Source of the DNA: a bacterium 336/3
GTDB taxonomy: Bacteria; Bacteroidota; Bacteroidia; Cytophagales; Thermonemataceae
DNA: 64,000 nucleotides
Direction of reading: 5' to 3'
NCBI GenBank assembly: GCA_001281695.1
Contig: LJIE01000001.1
Span: 2,184,586-2,248,585 of the forward strand
The position numbers and the translations under genes are program-made. Shown one piece after another: positions 1,378 through 15,640 of the stretch. The notes under the pieces were generated by a model. The model was given only the letters and a program-made list of their open reading frames with translations. It was not told where the DNA came from and did not search any database. Every line of letters starts with the position of its first letter. The first letter of the stretch is position 1.

Positions 1378-2054
1378 TAACTATTGAAAACTTATCAAAA
1401 GTCTATGGCAAGCATCAAATTCTAAAAAATATACAGATGTCTTTAGAAAAAGGCAAAGTATATGGAATTGTAGGCGAAAACGGAGCAGGAAAAACAACTC
1501 TTTTTAAGTGTATAGCTGGTTTGGAAGATTTTGAAGGCAGTATTCATAGCCTTTTAGAGCCTATCAAAAATTATATTGGCTACTTGCAAACAGAATCATA
1601 TTTCTTTTCTAAAATGACAGGTAAGGAGTATATTCATTTGTTGTGCCATGCTCGAAATATCCAAAATACAGATTTTGAAAATAAAAATATATTTGATTTG
1701 CCTTTGAATGAGTATGTTACTTCGTATTCGACAGGCATGAAAAAGAAACTAGCTCTTACAGCTATTTTAATGCAAGAAAATCAAATATTTATTTTAGATG
1801 AGCCTTTCAATGGAGTTGATATTCAGAGTAATCTGATGATAGTTGAAATTATTAAAAAACTTAAAATACTTGGAAAAACAGTTTTGATTTCGTCTCATAT
1901 TTTTTCAACACTTTATGAAATATGTGATGAGATTCATTTACTTAGAGAAGGAACATTTATAAAAAAAGCTCTACCAGATGAGTTTAAGGCTTTGGAAGAA
2001 GAAATGCGGGATTTTACAGTTGGGAATTTATTAGAAAGGCTGGATTTGAAGTAA
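1374..2054 (+). CDS. ABC transporter ATP-binding protein
   Basis: A 226-residue ATPase subunit of an ABC exporter. It has Walker A GENGAGKTT near residue 34, a signature region YSTGMKKKLAL in which the usual LSGGQ is replaced by YSTGM (common in CcmA/NatA-type exporters), Walker B IFILDEPFNGVD, and the switch histidine in LISSHIF. It is short and has no extra C-terminal domain. The start overlaps the stop of the upstream membrane protein, its presumed partner. A strong hairpin overlaps the stop codon and ends the transcript. The substrate cannot be told from sequence. Confidence 0.9.
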   Translation: MITIENLSKVYGKHQILKNIQMSLEKGKVYGIVGENGAGKTTLFKCIAGLEDFEGSIHSLLEPIKNYIGYLQTESYFFSKMTGKEYIHLLCHARNIQNTDFENKNIFDLPLNEYVTSYSTGMKKKLALTAILMQENQIFILDEPFNGVDIQSNLMIVEIIKKLKILGKTVLISSHIFSTLYEICDEIHLLREGTFIKKALPDEFKALEEEMRDFTVGNLLERLDLK

Positions 2055-14650: not shown

Positions 14651-14679
14651 AAAAAGGGTAGAGTTTTCTACCCTTTTTT
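14651..14679. terminator. Bidirectional terminator DUF2911/lrp
   Basis: AAAAAGGGTAGA, a GTTT loop, then TCTACCCTTTTT make a 12-bp stem with U-tracts on both strands, between convergent genes. Confidence 0.88.
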
Positions 14680-15142
14680 AGTCTAATAACAATGGTCTAT
14701 TCAATCTTTCTTCTAATGATATAAAAGTTTCTGTTCTCTGAATACCACCAACTTTCTGAATTTTTTCGTTCAAAACCTCTCTCAAATGGTTGGTATCTTT
14801 GCAAATGATTTTCGCAAAAATACTATAAGACCCTGTGGTATAATGTAAATTAACTACTTCAGGGATAGCTTCCAAGGCACTGACAGCTTCATCATATAAG
14901 GAACTCTTATCCAGATAAATACCAATAAAAGCCGTAATGTCCCAGCCTAATTTATGATAATCTACTTTGAGTTGTGAACCTTGTACCACACCCAAACGTT
15001 TGAGTTTTTCCATGCGTACATGTACTGTCCCATTCGATACAAAAGCCTTTTCCGCAATGCTTGTATAAGCCAAATTCGCATCTTGTAAAAGCAAATTGAT
15101 GATGCGAAAGTCTGTTTTGTCAAATTGATAATTTTGAGGCAT
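14678..15142 (-). CDS. Lrp/AsnC family transcriptional regulator
   Basis: A 154-residue regulator with an N-terminal winged helix-turn-helix (about 9-58; DFRIINLLLQDANLAYTSIA then FVSNGTVHVRMEKLKRLGVV) and a C-terminal RAM effector domain (about 70-145; AFIGIYLDKSSLYDEAV, VNLHYTTGSYSIFAKIICKD). Lrp/AsnC proteins are octameric regulators that usually sense amino acids and often control amino acid metabolism and their own genes. The gene is divergent from the tandem tRNA-like genes that start 137 bp away, so the AT-rich region between may hold control sites for both. The effector is unknown. Confidence 0.94.
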   Translation of the reverse strand: MPQNYQFDKTDFRIINLLLQDANLAYTSIAEKAFVSNGTVHVRMEKLKRLGVVQGSQLKVDYHKLGWDITAFIGIYLDKSSLYDEAVSALEAIPEVVNLHYTTGSYSIFAKIICKDTNHLREVLNEKIQKVGGIQRTETFISLEERLNRPLLLD

Positions 15143-15278
15143 ATTTAAAACATGTTTTTATAAAAATAAGTATAATTTTAATAATATTTTGTCAAAATTA
15201 TAATTTTTTAAAACTTTTTTTAAAAAATTTGCAAATAAAAAATCATTCCTTTAAAATTGTATCAACAAACAAACACAA

Positions 15279-15425
15279 TGTAGAGTGATGAAATTGGCAG
15301 ACATACCCTCCTCTCTCGAGGGTGGAGAAAAAGAAATAAATTAGTCTGCTCGGTAGTTATAGACGTATAACTACGAAGCACACTAACTAATCTCTCCGTA
15401 GGTGGTTCGAATCCCCTCTCTACAG
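15279..15425 (+). tRNA. tRNA-like gene 1, anticodon CTC (Glu codon GAG), 77-nt structured variable region
   Basis: A 147-nt unit that folds as a tRNA. Acceptor stem: 7 bp, 15279-15285 with 15418-15424, starting U1-A72, discriminator G73 at 15425, CCA not encoded. T8 and G9 are followed by D stem ATG/CAT (15288-15290, 15302-15304) around an 11-nt loop containing TTGG. Anticodon stem CCCTC/GAGGG (15306-15310, 15318-15322), loop CTCTCTC, anticodon CTC at 15313-15315. T stem 15400-15405 with 15413-15417 has one bulged T, and the T loop is TTCGAAT. The variable region (15323-15399) has nested stems 15324-15328/15393-15397, 15340-15345/15386-15391, 15347-15350/15377-15380 and a 9-bp hairpin 15353-15361/15366-15374. 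Odd points are a pyrimidine at position 37, the T-stem bulge and the giant variable arm. The D arm is Leu-like and the acceptor end Gln-like. Decoding function is unproven. Confidence 0.72.
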
Positions 15426-15437
15426 CAAAAATTATAA

Positions 15438-15584
15438 TGTGAAGTGATGAAATTGGCAGACATGCCCTCCTTTCTCGAGGGTGAGGAACAAGAAATAAAT
15501 TGGTCTGCTCGGTAGTGATAGATATACCACTACGAAGCACACTAACTAATCTCCTCGTGGATGGTTCGAATCCTCCTTTCACAG
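15438..15584 (+). tRNA. tRNA-like gene 2, anticodon TTC (Glu codon GAA), 77-nt structured variable region
   Basis: The second copy is also exactly 147 nt and starts 12 nt after the first. It has the same fold: acceptor 15438-15444/15577-15583, D stem 15447-15449/15461-15463, anticodon stem 15465-15469/15477-15481 with loop CTTTCTC and anticodon TTC at 15472-15474, T arm 15559-15576 with the same bulged T, discriminator G at 15584. Relative to copy 1, stem changes are mostly compensated: acceptor pairs 4 and 5 (A-T to G-C, G-C to A-T), outer variable stem GGAGA/TCTCC to GAGGA/TCCTC, T-stem AGG..CCT to GGA..TCC, and hairpin pair 6 T-A to G-C. One A-C mismatch is present in the inner hairpin. 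The anticodon loops differ only at position 34. This covariation supports a functional structured RNA; a translational role is inference. Confidence 0.72.
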
Positions 15585-15592
15585 CTAAAAAT

Positions 15593-15640
15593 AATAGGAG
15601 CTATCAGAATATTATTCTGAATAGCTCCTATTTGTGTTTT
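15593..15640 (+). terminator. Terminator after the tandem tRNA-like genes
   Basis: A long hairpin: about 12 bp of outer stem (AATAGGAGCTAT at 15593-15604 with ATAGCTCCTATT), a bulged A at 15620, then 6 bp (CAGAAT/ATTCTG) around ATT, followed by TTTGTGTTTT. It starts 9 nt after gene 2, consistent with one transcript holding both tRNA-like units. Confidence 0.8.

Follow-up and report, generated by a model that had tools for sequence, protein, structure and literature searches.

A tRNA-like RNA family of Bacteroidota and its possible role as a non-decoding carrier for asparagine synthesis

Two adjacent genes of a Bacteroidota genome encode RNAs that have every stem of a tRNA and carry a large, structured extra arm in the variable region. 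Do such RNAs decode, and if they do not, what might a cell use them for? An initial annotation, made from the sequence of the locus, had described them as tRNA-like genes with Glu anticodons and had offered roles both inside and outside translation. We addressed this question in a window of 64,000 nt (the whole stretch of DNA that was analysed), in the genome from which it was taken and among related bacteria and viruses. The features of the locus are as follows.

14678-15142, - strand: AsnC/Lrp-type transcription regulator (Pfam AsnC_trans_reg and HTH_24), divergent from the RNA genes
15143-15278, no strand: AT-rich intergenic region of 136 bp, defined by its position between the divergent regulator and RNA genes
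15279-15425, + strand: tRNA-like RNA copy 1 (U1 to G73, 147 nt), from sequence, alignment and pair counts
15311-15317, + strand: anticodon-type loop of copy 1, CUCUCUC
15324-15397, + strand: extra arm of copy 1
15438-15584, + strand: tRNA-like RNA copy 2 (U1 to G73, 147 nt), from the same evidence as copy 1
15470-15476, + strand: loop of copy 2, CUUUCUC
15483-15556, + strand: extra arm of copy 2
15593-15632, + strand: long hairpin just after copy 2 and possible transcription end, from a predicted fold

The two copies and the family to which they belong

The tandem arrangement of the initial annotation holds, with two units of 147 nt, counted through G73, lying 12 nt apart on the + strand. Both have the canonical stems that had been claimed (a 7-bp acceptor, a 5-bp anticodon stem with a 7-nt loop and a 5-bp T stem), together with the GG-containing D loop, U33 and the T loop TTCGAAT, and their 3-bp D stem is indeed of the Leu type. 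The 77-nt variable region was likewise found in both, and is far larger than the arms of class II tRNAs. A bulged U in the T stem occurs once in each window copy, as described, but is not constant, since homologues have 0, 1 or 2 bulged bases. Alignment of the copies confirmed the compensated changes, with six pairs that differ on both sides (acceptor pairs 4-69 and 5-68, two pairs of the extra arm and two of the T stem). Folding z-scores were -3.29 for copy 1 and -2.11 for copy 2, the units being entered without T1; in unconstrained minimum-energy folds the D stem is absent from both copies and the T arm from copy 2. The hairpin that follows copy 2 has a predicted energy of -22.4 kcal/mol (for 15585-15640) and is possibly where transcription ends; a simple terminator scan found none. 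On the minus strand, a GTG-started ORF of 106 aa (15262-15582) runs antisense to both RNA copies. It is probably spurious, and frames antisense to such copies may be annotated as proteins in databases.

The usual programs do not recognize these genes. ARAGORN made no tRNA call in the window and none in 20 loci, the window's locus included; the exceptions are two short viral copies (L237 and L289), which it calls tRNA-Asp(gtc). An Rfam 15 scan of the window yielded no family above cut-off, RF00023 (tmRNA) included, and a permissive scan gave only sub-threshold matches, for example to miRNA, plastid, snoRNA and sRNA families. The two copies are not among the 64 matches to RF00005 in the 4.71-Mb genome. 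We rejected tmRNA, GOLLD and other Rfam families as identities for the RNA: in the window, and in those of 18 scanned loci that carry the family, it is covered by no match above cut-off. A literature search outside preprints returned no description of this RNA family, nor of a separate RNA for tRNA-dependent Asn synthesis. The family is apparently undescribed so far, and has possibly been overlooked because tRNA-like hits get masked in RNA screens. As a separate observation, about 51 kb upstream of the window (L031, G000:C1:2132000-2135500) there are ordinary-looking tRNA genes with inserts, giving RF00005 matches 124 and 118 nt long; a repeat-like sequence seems to be common to these inserts and the intervening spacers.

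With copy 1 as query, blastn detected relatives in 26 genomes out of 59, that of the window being one of them. We then used a covariance model, R1, built from 22 copies (the two of the window and 20 from relatives); copy 1 scores 132.1 bits and copy 2 129.7 bits, both being members of the model. With a cut-off of 1e-16, set by eye (no genome falls between 1.3e-15 and 2.5e-17), about 149 of the 192 genomes drawn from the window's order match R1 and 43 do not. The presence of the RNA in most genomes of the order exceeds what chance would give. The three weakest of the 149 are G019, G056 and G191, of which G019 was inspected and proved to hold a real short copy. Weaker matches (E about 1e-6 to 1e-15) were taken as ordinary tRNA-Leu, which is what the one that we read turned out to be. 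Of 392 genomes drawn from the phylum as a whole, 44 passed 1e-15, or 43 once G535 was removed, its match being an ordinary tRNA-Leu. Score alone can confuse the family with tRNA-Leu, given that one ordinary tRNA-Leu (L376) reaches 66.6 bits with R1. In both draws the first look scored the best 8 or 16 candidates of each genome, and the RNA may have been missed in some of the genomes counted as negative. A pattern scan of named genomes returned at least 120 stretches; among the matches listed are Chitinophaga, Niabella, Algoriphagus, Cyclobacterium, Spirosoma, Dyadobacter, Fulvivirga, Pedobacter and Saprospiraceae, all of which we take, from their names, to be Bacteroidota. Tandem copies number up to six in one locus (L040). 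In the two tandem copies of another locus (L079:1674-1806 and 1854-1986, minus strand) the D arm is changed and the anticodon-type region is enlarged, though it still ends in CTGTCTC.

For comparison of positions we used an alignment (A3) of 101 matches, 95 of them distinct, taken from 62 loci and the window. The matches had been selected by blastn or R1 and not by their loop. When the 95 distinct copies are aligned by fitting to the R1 model, two-sided changes occur in 15 of the 24 pairs; column shuffles gave 8.3 on average and slid structures 1 to 5. Of the pair cells, 99.5% are standard. A MAFFT alignment of the 22 copies gave 14 of 24 such pairs versus 6.1 in shuffles. The initial annotation had proposed a check by covariance model among relatives, and homologues with covarying stems were found across the window's order; this covariation and the model matches bear out its claim that the structure is under selection. 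Our results show a conserved, often multi-copy RNA family that extends across much of Bacteroidota and also to viral contigs.

The viral copies come from a pattern scan of IMG/VR, which gave 95 stretches, 94 of them matched by R1 and 61 distinct. The search pattern fixed GUCUC, so that viral loops prove nothing; the acceptor end has U1-A72 in 59 and G73 in 60 of the 61 distinct copies (the remaining one being cut off). An ordinary tRNA lies within 1.5 kb in 53 of the 95 stretches, and some contigs also carry GOLLD and tmRNA, the latter as a separate gene; two of them (L283 and L299) combine the RNA with many tRNA genes, tmRNA and GOLLD RNA. A blastn search of INPHARED phage records with one query gave no match, and the viral evidence hence rests on IMG/VR contigs. 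Of the 56 viral copies that have the inner motif of the extra arm, 48 show a palindrome of at least 6 nt after it, where shuffles predict 18; these copies are related to each other and were found with one pattern. The palindromes differ in sequence (GCGCGC, GUGCAC, UGCAUGCA, GUUGCAAC, GCCGGCCGGC and others). The same test on bacterial copies with the motif gave 12 of 32, close to the 10.7 expected, which makes the palindromes a viral feature only. Pairing of two RNAs through these inner loops would fit their presence.

Constant positions and amino-acid identity

Six elements are invariant in the 95 distinct copies: U1-A72, G2-C71, G73, U35, C36 and C38. The U1-A72 pair and G73, noted earlier for the acceptor ends of the window, are in this way common to all 95. 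At position 34 we counted G in 82 copies, C and A in 5 each and U in 3, giving a consensus triplet GUC within a consensus loop YUGUCUC, and the window copies have C34 (copy 1) and U34 (copy 2). Reading CTC and TTC as a Glu anticodon pair does not carry over to the family, in which position 34 varies and G is commonest; judged from the alignment, the CUC and UUC of the window look like local drift at that position. Of the 95 copies, 79 have U33 and the remaining 16 another base (A, G or C). At position 37 there is U in 94, C in one and a purine in none, so that the pyrimidine described at 37 (U37 in both window copies) is common to the family. Of the 62 ordinary tRNAs called in the window's genome, 58 have U33 and 61 carry a purine at position 37, a combination of canonical elongator features that the family does not have. 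The pyrimidine at 37 and the variable position 33 support the earlier suggestion of a tRNA used outside translation. Variation among the 95 copies is found at positions 32, 33 and 34, in the D and T stems and in acceptor pairs 4-7, while an acceptor of 7 bp and a T stem of 5 bp are kept throughout the A2 and A3 alignments, with no 8/4, 9/3 or longer arrangement.

The 77-nt length of the variable region, in contrast, does not define the family. A3 copies span 111 to 194 nt, and short copies without the long insert exist: L375, in genome G019, is 77 nt long and has no long arm, and the viral L237 and L289 are 91-nt copies with an ordinary class II arm. All three keep U1-A72, G73, U35, C36 and C38; hence the extra arm is optional and the charging-type determinants are not. 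As to recurrent sequences, the form RRAYAAA occurs in 67 of the 95 copies, CTAA followed by C, T or G in 90, and an inner motif around GGGUUGACCAC in 32. Two pairings were considered and dropped: that of the loop GUC with GAC of the inner motif, because copies without the motif keep GUC, and that of CCUCC with Shine-Dalgarno sequences, because the stem varies and partly covaries.

We compared the constant positions with identity elements given in a review (PMC9976931). It names five strong Asp determinants (G73, G34, U35, C36 and C38) with G2-C71 as a minor one, and terms G1-C72 and G2-C71 crucial for bacterial Asp identity; it also states that U1-A72 permits amidation of Asp-tRNA, which G1-C72 and U20a prevent (PMC9976931). 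In the family, G73, G2-C71, U35, C36 and C38 are present in 95 of 95 copies and G34 in 82, the 13 without it including both window copies. G1-C72 is absent, its place being taken in all 95 A3 copies by U1-A72, the determinant of amidation by GatCAB. The D loop continues after GG as CAG in 93 copies and CAT in two, without U20a if position 20a is assigned in the Leu-type loop as we did here. The same two first pairs separate ordinary tRNAs of the window's genome, where tRNA-Asn(GUU) has U1-A72 and tRNA-Asp(GUC) has G1-C72. From its sequence, the RNA appears to join the loop, G73 and G2-C71 of tRNA-Asp to the first pair of tRNA-Asn. Asp charging may be weaker because of U1-A72 in place of the G1-C72 that is crucial for bacterial Asp identity, and the case is weaker for the window copies than for the family since they lack G34.

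The AsnC-type neighbour and the gene content of the genomes

The regulator upstream of copy 1 has as its best NCBIfam model AsnC (PRK11179), with 157.7 bits against a cut-off of 227, while Lrp scores 45.6. The 136 bp between it and copy 1 presumably hold the promoters of both the regulator and the RNA genes. A homologue of the regulator is divergent beside the RNA in 43 of the 62 loci, with gaps of mostly about 120-210 bp; in a few of the remaining 19 the flank is too short for a decision. Among 120 pattern-found loci a divergent AsnC-type neighbour was present in 72; the next commonest neighbour cluster reached 16, and no gene that could serve Asn release is conserved beside the RNA in these loci. 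No AsnC-type gene was seen in any of the viral stretches examined. A search with the regulator gave 40 matches in 39 of 148 genomes. Of 30 regulator loci examined, 15 adjoin the RNA and 15 have no clear RNA match beside them, one of these 15 having a weak match: a filter-free search of the 15 for missed RNA produced one weak candidate (L359, 30.1 bits), the others scoring at most 9.7 bits. This sequence (L359:1241-1354, minus strand), beside an AsnC-type gene, has the acceptor and T arm of the family and a strongly changed middle, and is perhaps a diverged relative. In E. coli, asnC is divergent from asnA, and AsnC responds to asparagine.

We then compared gene content in 80 genomes picked by hand, 40 RNA-positive and 40 RNA-negative, with Fisher values that ignore shared ancestry. 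GatB, from whose gene we judged the presence of GatCAB, was above cut-off in 40 of 40 RNA-positive genomes, the window's included, versus 23 of 40 RNA-negative ones (Fisher 1.7e-6). E. coli-type AsnB showed the opposite distribution, 0 of 40 versus 12 of 40 (Fisher 1.9e-4), with one further RNA-negative genome (G248) just below cut-off. Within the window's order AsnB occurs in 5 of 192 genomes, each of which is RNA-negative (Fisher 4.7e-4, taking both draws of 192 as the same genomes). Outside that order GatB was present in 9 of 9 RNA-positive versus 1 of 13 RNA-negative genomes, and AsnB in 0 of 9 versus 8 of 13. The pattern recurs within families. The f23 genomes include two RNA-positive ones with GatB but without AsnB and two RNA-negative ones with AsnB but without GatB, and in f13 both AsnB-bearing g91 genomes are without the RNA while G036, G154 and G160 have the RNA and no AsnB. 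We rejected the idea that AsnB replaces the RNA at the same place, since no AsnC-type gene lies within about 1.5 kb of five AsnB genes. One AsnB match (G225:C1:285799-287433) contains an internal TGA and a TAA, and is possibly a broken gene or an assembly error.

AsnRS was found in 40 of 40 genomes of either set, implying a need for free Asn in all 80. AsnA (E<=1e-20) is present in 4 of 40 RNA-positive versus 3 of 40 RNA-negative genomes, and the broad AsnB-like TIGR01536 in 37 versus 31. The RNA is hence not the sole possible source of Asn in RNA-positive genomes, where the TIGR01536 protein may make it. Three RNA-positive genomes (G012, G035 and G455) have none of AsnA, E. coli-type AsnB and TIGR01536 at the limits used, and do have AsnRS and GatB. 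Among the RNA-negative genomes, 26 of 40, several of them small, lack E. coli-type AsnB as well as AsnA. GatB is present in 23 of the 40 RNA-negative genomes, and loss of the RNA is thus not tightly tied to these genes.

A proposed function and its alternatives

We propose, tentatively and with slightly less than even confidence, that the family is a non-decoding tRNA-like carrier on which Asp becomes Asn. The AsnC-type, amino-acid-sensing regulator observed next to the RNA would control its transcription. The RNA, whose secondary structure covaries, would adopt an L shape and receive CCA. Aspartyl-tRNA synthetase would then load Asp by way of the determinants found in the copies (G73, G2-C71, U35, C36 and C38, with G34 where present). 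GatCAB would convert this Asp to Asn, a step that we propose because the first pair is the U1-A72 of tRNA-Asn and tRNA-Gln and not the G1-C72 of tRNA-Asp. The Asn would finally be released or passed on, feeding AsnRS, and would be kept from Asp codons by positions 33 and 37, unfit for decoding, and by the large extra arm. By a rough estimate, spontaneous hydrolysis alone would not be fast enough to supply protein synthesis. Tandem copies would fit a carrier needed in quantity, and the window's genus, with its C34 and U34, might be a variant that has relaxed the Asp determinant at this position or shifted to another charging enzyme.

A carrier charged with Asp or Asn could also donate its amino acid to a lipid, the cell wall, a peptide or a protein end, which we consider unlikely. 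Such a donor would have the same identity elements and the same poor decoding features, tRNA-dependent amino-acid transferases exist as a class, and no dedicated releasing enzyme is evident; but no transferase is a conserved neighbour in the 120 loci, and the AsnC-type regulator and the want of E. coli-type AsnB in all 40 RNA-positive genomes point to Asn supply. An RNA under AsnC-type control that mimics a tRNA and, whether charged or not, binds AspRS, GatCAB or another tRNA-binding protein, thereby signalling or buffering the Asp/Asn state, would account for the divergent regulator gene, for an extra arm that is variable and optional, and for viral inner loops whose palindromes could pair two RNAs. 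We think this improbable, as invariant determinants of both charging and amidation exceed the needs of a binding decoy, up to six tandem copies occur per locus, and viral contigs carry the RNA without the regulator in the stretches examined.

That the RNA is a decoding tRNA whose variable arm is oversized, be it one more isoacceptor for Asp or Glu or a recoding tRNA, appears very unlikely to us in spite of its intact cloverleaf with D-loop GG and T-loop TTCGAAT, the U33 of both window copies and of 79 of 95 overall, and the proximity of viral copies to tRNA genes (an ordinary tRNA within 1.5 kb in 53 of 95). Sixteen of the 95 copies have A, G or C at position 33, the pyrimidine at 37 in all 95 sets them apart from ordinary tRNAs, an amidated RNA would place Asn at Asp codons, and ordinary genes for tRNA-Asp(GUC) and tRNA-Glu(UUC) also exist. 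The long arm and G73 would suit an RNA of the allo-tRNA or tRNA-Sec type charged by SerRS, which according to a review of unusual tRNAs (PMC7609411) reads these two features, and GUC is there common among allo-tRNA anticodons. We regard this as very unlikely too: the acceptor and T arms are of 7 and 5 bp and not 8/4 or 9/3, a copy without the long arm keeps the other conserved elements, and U35, C36 and C38 would be invariant for no reason, since SerRS ignores the anticodon. A Y RNA (YrlA) was also considered and rejected. Its Ro-binding motif is GNCGAAN0-1G, with UUGACC as partner-like sequence; the motif is present in 0 of 95 bacterial and 2 of 61 viral copies. UUGACC is found in some copies, and the window's genome does have a gene for a TROVE (Ro60) protein. 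This Ro60-type gene adjoins a tRNA gene cluster (G000:C1:3343459-3347283; L336, L338 and L339).

The proposed carrier resembles several known systems in part. It would share U1-A72, GatB and the expected conversion of Asp to Asn on an RNA with the tRNA-dependent Asn synthesis performed by a non-discriminating AspRS, tRNA-Asn and GatCAB. This pathway is established, as is the way of testing it in JF448, an asnA asnB strain of E. coli that is auxotrophic for Asn, and it is reported or proposed for Bdellovibrio, Staphylococcus aureus and Deinococcus (PMC4206432). Here, by contrast, there is a separate gene with a GUC-type loop readable by a discriminating AspRS, and in place of a tRNA-Asn charged by a relaxed AspRS stands an RNA that seems unfit for decoding and has a large extra arm. 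With tRNA-Asp(GUC) the family has in common G73, G2-C71, the consensus G34 U35 C36 and C38, and it differs in U1-A72, the pyrimidine at 37, the variable 33, the Leu-type D arm and the extra arm, as well as, in the window copies, the lack of G34. The D arm and an arm in the variable region are as in tRNA-Leu and class II tRNAs, unlike G73, the anticodon loop and the size of the extra arm, which is several times longer and has inner motifs. A long variable arm, G73 and GUC are found too in allo-tRNAs and tRNA-Sec (GUC among allo-tRNA anticodons), but allo-tRNAs with GUC combine 8/4 or 9/3 arms with Ser-type identity, as PMC7609411 describes, whereas the family has a 7-bp acceptor, a 5-bp T stem and the loop determinants of another synthetase. 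A charged tRNA held out of protein synthesis, as in the reading proposed here, has a parallel in the staphylococcal non-proteinogenic tRNA-Gly, which differs in its normal size, its amino acid and its use for the cell wall.

Amidation as a pathway and descent from a tRNA are both familiar, and we give nearly an even chance to a tRNA-derived RNA that works there outside translation. In a fuller and more doubtful version, many Bacteroidota and their phages would make Asn on a dedicated and reusable non-decoding RNA by means of AspRS and GatCAB, under AsnC-type control and in replacement of E. coli-type AsnB, and the arm would be an add-on module by whose palindromic loops two phage RNAs pair. 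The AsnC-type regulator would then occupy the site where a synthetase gene might be expected. Whatever it does, the RNA is conserved over much of the Bacteroidota, often in several copies per genome, and we met it neither in Rfam, for the loci scanned, nor in the papers searched. If the proposal is true, an amino acid is made in these bacteria on an RNA cofactor that is no longer part of the genetic code, and the family would be a living example of RNA-bound metabolism, carried by phages too.
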